This document shows, piece by piece, positions 1,986-8,368 of a DNA stretch of 35,209 bases. The first letter of the stretch is position 1; each line of letters begins with the position of its first letter. Below the pieces are notes generated by a model. The model saw only the letters and a list, made by a program, of their open reading frames with translations, had not been told where the DNA came from and did not search any database. Made by a program: the position numbers and the translations under genes. The stretch is from Thiobacillus denitrificans (GTDB taxonomy: Bacteria > Pseudomonadota > Gammaproteobacteria > Burkholderiales > Thiobacillaceae), in NCBI GenBank assembly GCA_020725005.1, contig DYFW01000013.1, forward strand, positions 1 through 35,209, given 5' to 3'.

Positions 1986-2255
1986 ATGAAGACGCGTCAC
2001 CTGCGCATCCACGGCCGCGTGCAGGGCGTCTGGTTTCGCGAATCGATGCGGCAGGAGGCCGCGCGGCTGGGCGTGACGGGCTGGGTACGCAACACGGCCG
2101 ACGGGAAAGTCGAGGCCGTGGTGCAGGGGCCGGCCGAGGCGGTCGACGCGCTGATCGCCTGGGCGCACAAGGGACCGCCCATGGCGCGGGTGGAACGGGT
2201 CGAGGTCAGCGAGGCCGGAGGAACGTTCCAGGGCTTCGAGAAGCGGCGGGATTAG
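1986..2255 (+). CDS. acyP: Acylphosphatase
   Basis: Small (89-residue) cytosolic enzyme that hydrolyses carboxyl-phosphate bonds of acyl phosphates. It shows the family signature GRVQGVWFR with the phosphate-binding arginine at residue 18, and the catalytic asparagine at residue 36 in the GWVRN motif. The length is normal for the family. The ATG lies 4 bases after the metG stop, and a weak purine-rich sequence in the end of metG would serve as ribosome binding site. No T-rich terminator follows on this strand: the strong hairpin downstream is followed by A/T-mixed sequence on the plus strand and points the other way. Confidence 0.93.
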
Positions 2256-2273: not shown

Positions 2274-2303
2274 AAAAAAATGCCCGGTTCGGGGGAACCG
2301 GGC
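2274..2303 (-). terminator. Rho-independent terminator of the sRNA (and any dnaE read-through)
   Basis: A perfect 9-bp stem, GCCCGGTTC / GAACCGGGC (2303-2295 with 2290-2282), has a four-base loop and is followed on the minus strand by one A and seven T (2280-2274). On the plus strand the bases after the stem are AAATAT, so it does not terminate acyP. Confidence 0.88.
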
Positions 2304-2370
2304 AAATATCCACCAAAGGAGGAGGATTGGAGGAGACAACACCAAAACACCCTTGCGGTGCATCAGTGTT
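2274..2370 (-). ncRNA. Candidate small regulatory RNA with CU-rich anti-Shine-Dalgarno loop
   Basis: About 97 nt, predicted from a promoter (TTGACA at 2405-2400, spacer 17) to an intrinsic terminator. Reading the minus strand it folds into three stem-loops. Stem-loop 1 spans 2370-2338: AACACU pairs with GGUGUU, and inside it CACC (2360-2357) pairs with GGUG (2351-2348). Stem-loop 2 spans 2333-2310: CCUCCAA and UUGGUGG pair with one U-U mismatch and display a 10-nt loop UCCUCCUCCU at 2326-2317. Stem-loop 3 (2303-2282) is the terminator with a CCCC loop followed by A and U7. The linker before stem-loop 2 reads UUGUCUCC. Both CU-rich segments are complementary to Shine-Dalgarno sequences, which suggests a trans-acting, probably Hfq-dependent repressor of translation. 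The layout recalls the three-stem sibling sRNAs of Neisseria, from memory and without a search. It could instead be a processed dnaE 3' product, but it has its own promoter. Confidence 0.7.
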
Positions 2371-2405
2371 ATTAGAATTTTCTAATATTAGAAAACGCTT
2401 GTCAA
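2371..2405 (-). promoter_or_regulatory. Promoter of the candidate sRNA, overlapped by AT-rich dyads
   Basis: The -35 hexamer is a perfect TTGACA (2405-2400). After a 17-base spacer comes GAAAAT (2382-2377, 4 of 6 matches to TATAAT), predicting a start near 2370. An 18-bp perfect palindrome, TTTTCTAATATTAGAAAA (2378-2395), covers the spacer and most of the -10. A second dyad, ATTAGAA-AA-TTCTAAT (2386-2371), overlaps it, giving three half-sites (2393-2387, 2386-2380, 2377-2371). This is the expected look of an operator for a dimeric repressor; the regulator is unknown. Confidence 0.55.
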
Positions 2406-2455: not shown

Positions 2456-5400
2456 TCAATAAACAACCTGTACCGCGGCGGGATCGAGCCAGTCGCCCAG
2501 GGACTCGATCAGGCGGTCGTCCAGCCGCACACGCCAGTCGTCGCCCAGACGCACCCGGCAGCGGGCCCGGGGGTTGTGGTAATCGACCCAGACCGGGCAA
2601 CCGTCTTGCTCGGCCCGGTAAGGCGCGAGCAGTTCCCTGAGCTTGCGGCCGCTCGACTGGCCGTTGCAGGCGAGCCGCAGTGCCTGGGCAAAGCGGGTAC
2701 GCGCGCCCGCCAGGTCATGGATGCGCTCGCCGGTCACCCGCACGCCGCCCGAATAATCGTCGCGGTTGACCTTGCCCTCGATCACCAGCAGCGCGTCCTC
2801 TTTCAGCAGGTGGCGGTTCTGTTCGAAAAGCTCGTTGAAGATCACGACCTCGACCTGCGCGGTCGCGTCGTCGAGCAGCAGGATCAGCATCTTGCCGCGC
2901 CGCGTCATCTGCGTGCGCAGCGACACGACGATGCCGGCGAGCAAGACCGGCTCGCGTGACGGCTCCAGGCTGTCGAGCCGCTTCCTGGCGAAACTGGCGA
3001 CTTCCTGGCTGTAGACGGTGAAGGGGTGGCCGCTGAAAAAATAACCGAGCGCGGATTTTTCCTGGGCGAGTCTTTCCTGCTCGGACCAGCGCGGCGCGGC
3101 GACCAGATCCTCGCCGCCGCCGTCGAGCGCTTCGCCGAACAGCCCCACCTGGCCGCCGCTCTTGGCCTTGCGGTCGGCCGCTTCCAGCGCGGGGCCGATC
3201 GATGCCATCAGGCTTGCACGGTGGTCGTTCAAGCTGTCGAAGGCGCCGGCCTTGACCAGCGCCTCGAGCACGCGACGGTTGAGATAGCGCTTGTCGACGC
3301 GGCGGGCGAGGTCGAACAGGCCCTGGTAGGGGCCGTTCGCCTCGCGCTCGGCGACGATCGCGCCAATGGCCGCCTCGCCGCTGCCCTTGATCGCGCCGAG
3401 GCCGTAGCGGATCTCGGTCGGGCTCACCGGTTCGAAACGGTAGCCGGAAAGGTTGATGTCCGGGCCGAGCATGACGAGGCCATTGGCGCGGCAATCCTCG
3501 TAGAAGACGCGCACCTTGTCGGTATCGGACATTTCCGAGGACATCGTCGCCGCCATGAATTCGGCCGGGTAATGCGCCTTCAGCCACGCCGTTTGATACG
3601 CCACCAGGGCGTAGGCCGCGGAGTGCGACTTGTTGAAGCCGTACTCGGCGAATTTCTCCATCAGGTCGAACAGGCGCTCGGCAACCTTGGTGTCCGCCCC
3701 GCGCCTGGCCGCGCCGGCCAGGAAGATCTCGCGCTGCTTGGCCATCTCCTCGGGCTTCTTCTTGCCCATGGCGCGGCGCAGCAGGTCGGCGGCACCGAGG
3801 CTGTAGCCCGCGAGGATCTGCGCGACCAGCATCACCTGTTCCTGGTAGACGATGATGCCGTAGGTCGACTTCAGCACCGGCTCGAGATCGGGGTGGAAAT
3901 ACTCCGGCTTCTGCTTGCCCTGCTTGCGCGCGATGAAGTCATCCACCATGCCCGAGCCGAGCGGGCCCGGGCGGTTGAGCGCCATCAGGGCGATGATGTC
4001 CTCGAAGCAGTCACCCTTGAGCTTTTTCTCCAGATCCTTGGCCGAGCGCGATTCCGACTGGAACACCGCGGTGGTGTTGCCGTCGGCGAAGAGCTTGTAG
4101 ACGGCGGGATCGTCGAGCGGCAGGTCTTCCAGGCGGAAATTCTCCATGCCCGGGCGGCGCTGCACGAAGCGCACCGCCTCGGCAAGGATGGTGAGCGTGC
4201 GCAGGCCGAGGAAGTCGAACTTGACCAGGCCGATCGCCTCGACGTCGTCCTTGTCGAATTGCGACACCACCGCGTCCGAGCCTTCGGCGCGGTAGAGCGG
4301 ACAGAAGTCGGTGAGTTTCCCCGGCGCGATCAGCACGCCCCCGGCGTGCATGCCGACATTGCGCGTGAGTTCCTCGAGCTTTTCCGCCAGGCCAAAGAGC
4401 TCCTGCACTTCCTCTTCCTGCTCGTAGCGCTCCTTCAGCTGCGGCTCCATCTCCAGCGCCTTCGCGAGCGACACCGGCTTCACGCCTTCGATCGGCACCA
4501 GCTTGGAGAGCTTGTCGCAATAGTTGTAAGGCATGTCGAGCACGCGGCCGACGTCGCGGATGACCGACTTGGAGCCCAGCGTGCCGAAGGTGGCGATCTG
4601 CGATACCGCCGCGTGGCCGTACTTGTCCTTCACGTACTGGATCACGCGGTCGCGACCGTCCTGGCAGAAGTCGATGTCGAAGTCGGGCATCGACACCCGC
4701 TCGGGGTTGAGGAAGCGTTCGAACAGCAGGTCGTAGCGCAGCGGATCGAGGTCGGTGATCGACAGGCAGTAGGCGACCAGCGAGCCCGCGCCCGAGCCGC
4801 GCCCCGGCCCCACCGGCACGCCGTTGTGCTTGGCCCAGTTGATGAAGTCCGAGACGATCAGGAAATAGCCCGGAAAACCCATCTGGATGATCGTGCCGAG
4901 CTCGAACTCGAGCCGCGCGGTGTATTCGGGCAGCTTCGCCGCGCGCTCGGCCGCGTCCGGATAGAGGCGCGCCATGCGCGCGTGCAGCCCCTCGTAGGAA
5001 CGCTGCCGGATATAGTCGTCCAGGCTCATGCCGTCCGGCGTCGGGAAATCCGGCAGGCGGCTCTTCCCGAGTTCCAGCGTGAGGTTGCAGCGCTTGGCGA
5101 TCTCGACGCTGTTCGCAAGCGCCTCGGGCAGGTCGGCGAACAACTCGGCCATCTCGTCTGGCGATTTGAAATACTGCTCGGCGGTGAAGACCCGCGGGCG
5201 GCGCGGGTCGCCCAGCATCATGCCTTCGGCGATGCACACGCGCGCCTCGTGCGCCTTGAAGTCGTCTGCCGCAAGAAACTGGATCGGGTGGGTCGCGACG
5301 GCGGGCAGGCCCAGGGCCGCGCCGATGTCGAGCAGGCCGTCGATCAGGCGTTCGGCGTGCGGCTGGCCGTAACGCTGCAGTTCCAGGTAATAGCGCCCGG

Positions 5401-5887
5401 GGAACAGGCCGGCCCAGGTCTCGGCGGCGGCGCGTGCGGCGTCGGGTTTGTCGTCGAGCAGCGCCTGCGCGACATTGCCGGCGTCGCCGCCGGACAGCGC
5501 GATGAGGCCCTCGGTGCCTTCGGCGAACCAGGCCGGGTCGATCTCCGCGCGACCGCGATACATGTTCTCCTGGTAGGCGCGGGAGAGCAGTTCGCACAGG
5601 CGGCGGTAGCCCTCGCGGTGCTGGACCAGCAGCAACAGGCGCGACGGGCGGTTGCGGTCGGTGGCCTGGGAAAGCCACACGTCGCAGCCGAACAGGGGCT
5701 TCACGCCCGCGCCGCGCGCCGCACGGTAGAACTTGATCCAGCCGAAGGTGTTGGACAGGTCGGTCAGGCCCAGCGCCGGCATGCCGGTCGCACGCGCACG
5801 CTCGACCGCGTCGTTCAGCCGCACCAGCCCGTCGGTGATGGAAAACTCGCTGTGCAGGCGGAGGTGGATGAAGCGCGGCTCGGTCAT
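2456..5887 (-). CDS. dnaE: DNA polymerase III alpha subunit
   Basis: Catalytic subunit of the replicative polymerase (1143 residues; E. coli 1160). The N-terminal PHP domain starts at once with HLRLHSEFS (His8, His12). The C-family polymerase core carries the acidic motif PDFDIDF near residue 400, and the finger/tau-binding regions follow. An OB-fold lies near residues 970-1060 (SLRTQMTRRGKMLILLLDDA region), with a C-terminal segment after it. The ATG at 5887 gives the normal N-terminus. A -10-like TAAAAT lies at 5920-5915, about 30 bases upstream, without a good -35. There is no terminator directly after the stop; the nearest on this strand is the sRNA terminator about 150 bases further, so dnaE transcripts could run through the sRNA gene. 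Assignment is secure. Confidence 0.98.
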   Translation of the reverse strand: MTEPRFIHLRLHSEFSITDGLVRLNDAVERARATGMPALGLTDLSNTFGWIKFYRAARGAGVKPLFGCDVWLSQATDRNRPSRLLLLVQHREGYRRLCELLSRAYQENMYRGRAEIDPAWFAEGTEGLIALSGGDAGNVAQALLDDKPDAARAAAETWAGLFPGRYYLELQRYGQPHAERLIDGLLDIGAALGLPAVATHPIQFLAADDFKAHEARVCIAEGMMLGDPRRPRVFTAEQYFKSPDEMAELFADLPEALANSVEIAKRCNLTLELGKSRLPDFPTPDGMSLDDYIRQRSYEGLHARMARLYPDAAERAAKLPEYTARLEFELGTIIQMGFPGYFLIVSDFINWAKHNGVPVGPGRGSGAGSLVAYCLSITDLDPLRYDLLFERFLNPERVSMPDFDIDFCQDGRDRVIQYVKDKYGHAAVSQIATFGTLGSKSVIRDVGRVLDMPYNYCDKLSKLVPIEGVKPVSLAKALEMEPQLKERYEQEEEVQELFGLAEKLEELTRNVGMHAGGVLIAPGKLTDFCPLYRAEGSDAVVSQFDKDDVEAIGLVKFDFLGLRTLTILAEAVRFVQRRPGMENFRLEDLPLDDPAVYKLFADGNTTAVFQSESRSAKDLEKKLKGDCFEDIIALMALNRPGPLGSGMVDDFIARKQGKQKPEYFHPDLEPVLKSTYGIIVYQEQVMLVAQILAGYSLGAADLLRRAMGKKKPEEMAKQREIFLAGAARRGADTKVAERLFDLMEKFAEYGFNKSHSAAYALVAYQTAWLKAHYPAEFMAATMSSEMSDTDKVRVFYEDCRANGLVMLGPDINLSGYRFEPVSPTEIRYGLGAIKGSGEAAIGAIVAEREANGPYQGLFDLARRVDKRYLNRRVLEALVKAGAFDSLNDHRASLMASIGPALEAADRKAKSGGQVGLFGEALDGGGEDLVAAPRWSEQERLAQEKSALGYFFSGHPFTVYSQEVASFARKRLDSLEPSREPVLLAGIVVSLRTQMTRRGKMLILLLDDATAQVEVVIFNELFEQNRHLLKEDALLVIEGKVNRDDYSGGVRVTGERIHDLAGARTRFAQALRLACNGQSSGRKLRELLAPYRAEQDGCPVWVDYHNPRARCRVRLGDDWRVRLDDRLIESLGDWLDPAAVQVVY

Positions 5888-7919: not shown

Positions 7920-8113
7920 TTGACTCTTGTAAAAAGCCGGGGGCGGGAGTAAAAATGCAGTCAGTTTGGCTTCAAGAACCGTGCAGGTTTGGCATTACCG
8001 CAGGGGCATCACCGGGTAGCGCGCTTGAACTCAGACCGACGGCAACAAAAATCCGCCGTCCTGTCAGCCGCCGTAGCGGTTATGTTTCGTGTCACGCCAA
8101 GGAGGGAGTTTCA
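7920..8113 (+). promoter_or_regulatory. Promoter region and structured leader of the cold-shock gene
   Basis: Bases 7842-8113 carry no gene. TTGTAA (7927-7932), 17 bases and TAAAAA (7950-7955) form a possible promoter, which would leave a leader of about 150 nt. The leader contains hairpins such as GACGGC/GCCGTC (8038-8043 with 8055-8060) and CCGC/GCGG (8068-8071 with 8076-8079) before the strong ribosome site AAGGAGGGAG at 8099-8108. Long, temperature-sensitive leaders are characteristic of cspA-type genes; that this one acts so is inference. Confidence 0.5.
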
Positions 8114-8320
8114 ATGGCAACAGGTACTGTCAAGTGGTTCAGCGACGCCAAGGGCTTCGGGTTCATCACCCCCGATGACGGCGGCGAGGATGTATTCGCG
8201 CACTTCTCCGCCATCCAGACCAGCGGTTTCAAGACGCTCAAGGAAGGCCAGAAGGTGTCGTTCGAAGTCAGCCAGGGCCCCAAGGGCAAGCAGGCTTCCA
8301 ACATCCAGCCGCAAAGCTGA
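8114..8320 (+). CDS. Cold-shock protein, CspA family
   Basis: 68-residue single cold-shock domain, a five-stranded OB-fold that binds single-stranded RNA/DNA and melts secondary structure. RNP1 is KGFGFI (residues 13-18) and RNP2 is VFAHF (27-31); the protein opens with MATGTVKWF as usual. The start at 8114 follows an excellent ribosome binding site. The same frame is open upstream to 7955, but that part is leader, not protein. A strong bidirectional terminator follows 15 bases after the stop. Which csp paralogue it is cannot be told from the sequence. Confidence 0.96.
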
Positions 8321-8334
8321 GCGGATTCCAGTCC

Positions 8335-8368
8335 AGCAAAAAGCCCCGCCTTGGCGGGGCTTTTTGCT
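8335..8368. terminator. Bidirectional terminator between csp and icd
   Basis: A perfect 16-bp inverted repeat (8335-8350 and 8353-8368) with a GC-rich core GCCCCGCC/GGCGGGGC and A5/T5 flanks. It ends the csp transcript on the plus strand and the icd transcript on the minus strand, as expected for convergent genes. Confidence 0.94.

Follow-up and report, generated by a model that had tools for sequence, protein, structure and literature searches.

Within the window, the whole 35,209-nucleotide stretch of Thiobacillus denitrificans DNA that was analysed, a short minus-strand gene for a small RNA (sRNA) lies between dnaE and the acylphosphatase gene acyP (Table 1). A minus-strand transcription unit had been proposed at this place by an earlier note made from the sequence alone, and its -35 element, predicted 97-nt transcript and terminator with U7 tract were all located. 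The promoter consists of TTGACA, a 17-nt spacer and GAAAAT (10 of 12 matches; one site found against 0.2 expected from shuffles), so that the consensus promoter described in that note stands for the -35 hexamer but not for the -10 hexamer. The predicted start at 2370 is the first base of stem 1, in agreement with the 5′ end having been placed at the base of the first stem. The 102-nt stretch 2375-2274 folds with an energy of -44.8 kcal/mol (z = -7.0), which none of 200 shuffles equalled, and the 97-nt sRNA with -42.4 kcal/mol. Both the minimum-energy fold and the consensus gave stem 2 as AUCC-U-CC/GG-U-GGAU and left all of UGUCUCCUCC but its first base single-stranded; the 7-bp stem with the loop UCCUCCUCCU that had been drawn previously contains a U-U mismatch and was dropped. 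Absent from the earlier note is an 18-bp palindrome inside the promoter, a predicted operator.

Table 1. Features of the sRNA locus, with positions counted in the window.
Feature	Position	Strand	Remarks
sRNA gene, RF02278 member	2274..2370	minus	97 nt; Rfam score, fold z, covariation
-35 element TTGACA	2400..2405	minus	promoter scan
-10 element GAAAAT	2377..2382	minus	4/6 consensus matches; promoter scan
Perfect palindrome TATTAGAAAATTCTAATA, arms TATTAG/CTAATA	2370..2387		predicted operator of an ArsR/BigR-type repressor, about -18 to +1
Stem-loop 1	2338..2370	minus	outside the Rfam model save for its last base
Seed 1, UGUCUCCUCC	2329..2338	minus	predicted single-stranded bar first base; complementary to GGAGGAGACA-type ribosome sites
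Stem-loop 2, AUCC-U-CC/GG-U-GGAU, loop UCCUUU	2308..2327	minus	contains the second CU-rich run
Terminator hairpin	2281..2304	minus	10 pairs, covarying
U7 tract	2274..2280	minus	
dnaE	2456..5887	minus	upstream neighbour
acyP, acylphosphatase gene	1986..2255	plus	convergent downstream neighbour

Comparison with Rfam showed that the sRNA is of a known kind, a member of RF02278 (Betaproteobacteria toxic sRNA), with a score of 60.2 bits, above the cut-off of 50 (2274-2338, model positions 1-64). It has the features of this family: two CU-rich stretches with complementarity to ribosome sites, a pair of hairpins and a U-rich end. The covariance-model search that the earlier note had suggested therefore gave a match over the cut-off, and the idea of an undescribed sRNA family was dropped; the statement that no description was known fails at the family level, since RF02278 has been published in Burkholderia and Herbaspirillum and has a homologue in Bordetella. 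A likeness to the sibling sRNAs of Neisseria had also been suggested, and is borne out by a full-length match to NmsRb (RF02877) that remains below threshold (34.6 bits, cut-off 52), a score with which orthology to NmsR in the strict sense was rejected. The anti-hemB, ar14 and suhB models all scored under their cut-offs and were dropped as identities. The proposed reading as an anti-Shine-Dalgarno riboregulator holds, given the NmsRb match together with the covariation and seed conservation described below, and hfq is present in the sRNA's genome. Four members of RF02278 are reported in Burkholderia cenocepacia (ncS27, ncS03, ncS05 and ncS62; PMC4603805, PMC5688073) and four in Herbaspirillum (Hsnc59, Hsnc63, Hsnc86 and Hsnc107; PMC7011215). 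Cloned members are described as inhibiting growth of E. coli (PMC4603805) and overexpression of Burkholderia ncS27 as attenuating growth (PMC5688073, PMC10987360), whereas Bordetella S17S is reported to show no similar toxicity under the conditions tried (PMC11722255).

Matches to RF02278 at E <= 0.001 were obtained in 47 of 60 relatives (over the cut-off in 38), in 33 of the 36 genus genomes (G000-G035) and in none of 14 control genomes. Rfam supplied the 33 genus loci, which were then placed by motif with two changes allowed. The seed (UGUCUCCUCC / TGTCTCCTCC) is exact in 32 of them, L040 being the one that differs; dnaE is present at 32 and the acylphosphatase gene at 26. Wider relatives were retrieved with a pattern that demands both seed and operator, so their agreement at these two elements is by construction. 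Among these 102 operator-sRNA loci, 69 have dnaE no more than 600 nt upstream, and in the others it is further off or outside the available stretch; operator and sRNA may therefore share another site in some lineages.

Covariation was assessed in 44 sequences picked by hand from 99 distinct operator-sRNA sequences, the set omitting rows that an early T-run had truncated as well as roughly half of those remaining, including Sulfuriferula-type rows, in which stem 2 appears different. Standard pairs filled 96.9% of the cells and both members had changed in 10 of 22 pairs; not one of 500 shuffles reached any of five covariation measures, and slid controls dropped to 32-44% paired. Both-side changes were found at 4 of 8 basal pairs of stem 1, at 5 of 8 terminator pairs and at 1 of 6 pairs of stem 2. 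The covariation anticipated for three stems is therefore seen in stems 1 and 3, while stem 2 is almost invariant, so that covariation neither supports nor contradicts it. Loss of the stems or of the CU-rich loop in relatives had been named as evidence against the sRNA; the covariation of stems 1 and 3 and the near-universal seed of the genus loci indicate the opposite. When all 99 sequences were folded computationally, 72 left 9 or 10 of the 10 seed bases unpaired and 16 left only 2 of them free; this last, unfavourable outcome may represent either folding error or a real alternative.

Other elements related to this family were observed. L052 (G000:C97:3668-3712, minus) is shorter, with a GUUGUCUCCUCC seed followed directly by a strong terminator and no stem 2; it follows, in the same orientation, a response regulator gene judged by eye to be of the LytTR type. 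A similar short seed-terminator element was found in G002 (L053), and elements of this type are possibly siblings derived from 3′ ends. G006 and G035 gave weak RF02278 matches, and the exact motif was not found there. The order-level genome G042 (L021, L042-L047, L058) has nine matches at E <= 0.001, eight of them over the cut-off and three within about 4 kb (1642577-1646602). Elsewhere in the window, positions 7965-8367 of the plus strand match the cspA thermoregulator RF01766 (83.9 bits, cut-off 78), and the open reading frame beneath resembles, by eye, a cold-shock protein.

The palindrome TATTAG-N6-CTAATA spans the -10/+1 region of the sRNA promoter, and this position, combined with a perfect -35 element, fits repression. 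With up to two mismatches the operator was found in 31 of the 33 genus sRNA promoters; the best match upstream of the seed had 0 mismatches at 19 loci, 1 at eight, 2 at four, 3 at one and 6 at L040 (G014), where the operator is absent. Of the 98 distinct operator-sRNA promoters whose upstream DNA was long enough, 72 have their best -35-like hexamer starting 18 bases ahead of the operator. A matrix trained exclusively on sites away from the sRNA (training range 22.2-36.5) gave the window site a score of 36.5, higher than any other place in the window; the runner-up (10.4) overlaps it. The highest resampled scores were 6.3 (30 first-order Markov versions of the window) and 23.2 (2000 versions of the local AT-rich stretch). 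Scores of at least 23.6 were obtained in 32 of the 33 genus promoters, L040 scoring 1.7. A set of 20 RF02278 loci from other families was also analysed; 14 were placed by motif and 6 were not. Only one of the 14 has the operator (L031, genome G049), indicating that the wiring is lineage-specific. Genomes G037, G039, G045 and G056 encode an ArsR orthologue (68-86% identity), yet have no operator at the located sRNA.

Copies of the operator were also found at other genes. Searching the 36 genus genomes with up to two mismatches returned 74 forward and 81 reverse matches, as sums over a per-genome table, against 1 and 2 for a reversed-pattern control; forward and reverse counts overlap because the site is nearly symmetric. 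Of at least 61 copies away from the sRNA, 56 adjoin the starts of six gene groups, at distances from overlap to 71 nt. Among the copies listed these are RND adaptor (17), rhodanese (16), DUF302 (11), LTXXQ periplasmic protein (5), divergent Hmp/Rrf2 (5) and 1-Cys peroxiredoxin (2) genes; one rhodanese of its group (at L365) is only 37% identical. The remaining 5 of the 61 listed copies have none of the six groups beside them, and one of these lies at a contig end. The groups were defined on the first 41 sites, 40 of which fit, and 16 of 20 later sites then fitted them; the sites are copies in related genomes rather than independent events.

Judged by their sequences, the six groups appear to be mostly sulfur or thiol genes. 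Operator-linked operons encode DsrE2 (264 bits, cut-off 210) and glutaredoxin 3 (104.6 bits, cut-off 90), and further domain matches of operator-linked genes were to a YgaP-like transmembrane domain, DUF302, LTXXQ, AhpC/1-Cys peroxiredoxin, Rrf2 and globin. The RND permease and rhodanese matches fell under curated cut-offs, and the names TusA, RND adaptor and thioredoxin were assigned by eye. A metallo-beta-lactamase-fold protein, which matches GloB and part of Blh under their cut-offs, is a putative persulfide dioxygenase. In the window's genome, a second operator copy precedes a rhodanese-TusA-DsrE2 operon and a weaker copy, TATAATTAAATTCTAATA, lies 147 nt after an ArsR gene. At L119, L143, L354, L356 and L360, operator-like palindromes (TATTAGRTGAATCTAATA) lie between divergent Rrf2 and flavohaemoglobin genes, and these may be NsrR rather than ArsR sites. 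Genome G059 has no RF02278 match at E <= 0.001; it carries a perfect operator copy (L201, G059:C8:304663) and an operator 49 nt after an ArsR gene (L189, G059:C14), suggesting that the regulon may exist without the sRNA.

A candidate regulator was found beside the operator copies. The RND/YgaP-like/rhodanese operon is often preceded by an ArsR gene, and in G032 an ArsR protein is encoded immediately upstream of the RND operon. The best solved relatives of this protein are BigR (biofilm growth-associated repressor, 3pqj), HlyU and YgaV (3cuo), followed by 6o8k-6o8o, which we take to be SqrR. In four alignments the cysteines of BigR, HlyU and YgaV are matched by the two of this protein, and aligned genus orthologues have two cysteines in the same places. 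The score against the NCBIfam BigR equivalog NF040642 is below the cut-off (74.5 against 155 bits); by this score, the protein counts as a relative and is not classed as BigR itself. Persulfide-sensing ArsR proteins are reported to form a sulfur bridge between two cysteines, after which DNA binding is lost (PMC10451225, PMC10509353). The available text of the literature on these regulators contained no published SqrR, BigR, SoxR or YgaV operator sequence, so a motif comparison was not possible.

Of the 36 genus genomes, 35 encode an ArsR orthologue that is nearly full-length and at least 91% identical, G022 giving only a fragment and distant matches. The 300 nt downstream of the ArsR gene contain the operator core (up to two mismatches) in 21 of 30 genus loci (control 1/30). 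The corresponding counts are 3 of 9 other-family loci (control 0/9; 3 of 12 dropped for identity below 60%) and 14 of 19 loci of the named collection (control 2/19; 1 of 20 dropped as too short, and L348 from the same genome as L186). No operator was found just downstream of ArsR in 9 of the 30 genus loci; in G004, G005, G010, G014 and G016 the adaptor site is on another contig or about 9 kb away, so that no ArsR-adjacent copy is expected.

The 102 stretches used above came from scanning named genomes for the operator together with the sRNA seed. Taxa among the 80 listed include Thiobacillus, Sulfuricella, Sulfuriferula, Parasulfuritortus, Tepidiphilus, Gallionellaceae and Hydrogenophilales, alongside bins with less precise names. 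Many of these organisms oxidise sulfur. RF02278 was over the cut-off in 12 of 18 named-genome loci scored and under it in 6. All 20 operator-sRNA genomes picked by hand from the 102 to span names encode an ArsR orthologue (80-94% identity), compared with 8 of 23 order-level genomes where no operator-sRNA was seen (identity of at least 60%), a contrast that is due in part to shared descent.

Candidate targets of the seed were sought in the window's own genome. The sequence TGGAGGAGACA, with up to one mismatch, occurs at 14 places (control pattern 3), one of which is the sRNA gene itself, and 5 of the other 13 were judged to stop 2-5 nt short of a plausible start codon. The five genes are a branched-chain amino-acid ABC binding-protein-like gene and a ribonuclease I-like gene (both under curated cut-offs), an anaerobic ribonucleotide reductase, a 2-oxoglutarate dehydrogenase E1 (scanned as a fragment) and a PEP-CTERM sigma-54 response regulator. 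The genus-wide comparison covered two of them, prsR (the sigma-54 response regulator) and sucA. At prsR, 15 of 27 distinct genus start regions contain at least 8 contiguous seed bases, with a mean duplex energy of -17.2 kcal/mol. The same count was 0/29 for sucA, 0/27 for acyP, 0/13 for rhd, 0/9 for DUF302 and 0/13 for tusA; the control dsrE2 gave 2/13, and its mean duplex of -15.6 is also strong. Although the ribosome site of sucA matches 7 contiguous seed bases in this genome, sucA was rejected as a target on the genus count. The best candidate found is therefore prsR, as a lead and not as proof, since GGAGG is also a normal Shine-Dalgarno sequence. S17 of Bordetella pertussis, described as Hfq-dependent and cut by RNase E, is reported to repress a sigma-54 activator (PMC11722255), a parallel to the prsR candidate that is suggestive only.

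Taken together, the family membership and conserved structure of the sRNA, the sharing of its operator and the regulator gene beside operator copies point to a circuit in which an ArsR-type persulfide sensor represses an RF02278 anti-Shine-Dalgarno sRNA and sulfane sulfur releases it with its co-regulon, a reading to which we assign a probability of roughly two in three. In Thiobacillus and related sulfur oxidisers, the ArsR-type repressor would bind TATTAG-N6-CTAATA across the sRNA -10/+1 region. Thiosulfate, sulfide or polysulfide would raise sulfane sulfur, the two repressor cysteines would become bridged and the repressor would leave the DNA, a release predicted from the reported loss of DNA binding by bridged persulfide-sensing ArsR proteins. 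The sRNA would then be expressed along with the rhodanese-TusA-DsrE2 operon, the RND/YgaP-like/rhodanese/glutaredoxin operon, the peroxiredoxin gene beside the putative persulfide dioxygenase and DUF302 genes; because its switch is shared with sulfur-handling genes, the sRNA is probably turned on by reactive sulfur. Its CU-rich seed would pair with the ribosome-binding sites of selected mRNAs, and their translation would stop.

Three other explanations were weighed. The palindrome could be the operator of a different regulator, for example NsrR (Rrf2 family) or another repressor, with a signal other than sulfane sulfur. The five sites between divergent Rrf2 and flavohaemoglobin genes would suit this explanation, as would the nine genus ArsR genes that have no copy just downstream; however, the regulator gene directly beside operator copies in four families (f1, f12, f15 and f25) is ArsR, and most other operator-linked groups are sulfur-transfer or thiol-redox genes, and we regard it as unlikely. 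It is less plausible still that starvation or growth arrest induces this sRNA, as is reported for Burkholderia ncS27, making it an ordinary member of RF02278 with sulfur at most a minor input. While ncS03, ncS05 and ncS27 are reported to rise in biofilm, starvation and glucose medium, by authors who describe the regulator of their accumulation as unknown (PMC5688073), the operator is missing from 13 of the 14 placed other-family promoters (a set without Burkholderia), so the control of those sRNAs need not apply here. The conserved 18 bp overlap the -10 element, and conservation is expected among orthologous promoters in any case. That they are mere AT-rich promoter sequence is nevertheless very improbable, since the same palindrome recurs before unrelated genes, the reversed pattern had a single forward match where the true pattern had 74, and not one of 2000 local shuffles reached the site score.

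The kind of sRNA is thus known, and the new part would be its control circuit, as read from sequence. Among the matches listed in the openly licensed literature, titles and the first parts of abstracts gave no description of the locus, the operator or a persulfide-sensor-controlled sRNA, and no sRNA target of BigR, HlyU, YgaV, SqrR or SoxR was found among the matches listed there. RF02278 sRNAs are widespread in Betaproteobacteria, and the shared operator supplies a candidate regulator and signal for the sulfur-oxidiser branch. If the circuit is correct, an sRNA joins the persulfide-sensing regulon; small-RNA effects of persulfide sensing are raised by the authors of a Hyphomicrobium study only as a possibility (PMC12423496). 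The circuit is directly testable in a cultivable lithotroph.

With the RF02278 model the sRNA has in common the UGUCUCC of site 1, the CU-rich hairpin and the terminator; it differs from the published members in having a promoter of its own, over which a BigR-type operator is predicted, and an additional covarying 5′ stem-loop beyond the model. S17S, by comparison, is reported to be released by RNase E from a 190-nt precursor (PMC11722255). NmsRA and NmsRB (NgncR_162/163) are described with a similar layout of three stem-loops and anti-Shine-Dalgarno stretches between stems 1 and 2 and in stem-loop 2, and as acting via these two stretches (PMC5362039); the Neisseria sRNAs are reported as tandem siblings, in contrast to one full match and one weak short element here. 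The candidate regulator resembles BigR, HlyU and YgaV (also SqrR and SoxR), its closest solved relatives, in keeping both cysteines, and the operator-linked operon resembles BigR-type systems in its YgaP-like and rhodanese-like genes. In the Fur-RyhB circuit, a metal sensor represses an sRNA. The likeness to this system is one of logic only, a repressor released by a signal state controlling a trans-acting sRNA, while RNA and sensor are unrelated to those described here; RyhB under Fur is mentioned in PMC5688073. On balance we lean towards seeing the locus as a sulfur counterpart of Fur-RyhB, in which a persulfide-sensing ArsR protein would directly control a broad anti-Shine-Dalgarno sRNA in Betaproteobacteria that oxidise sulfur, with sulfane sulfur switching sulfur-handling genes on and, by way of the sRNA, the translation of other mRNAs, such as those of sigma-54 regulators like PrsR, off.
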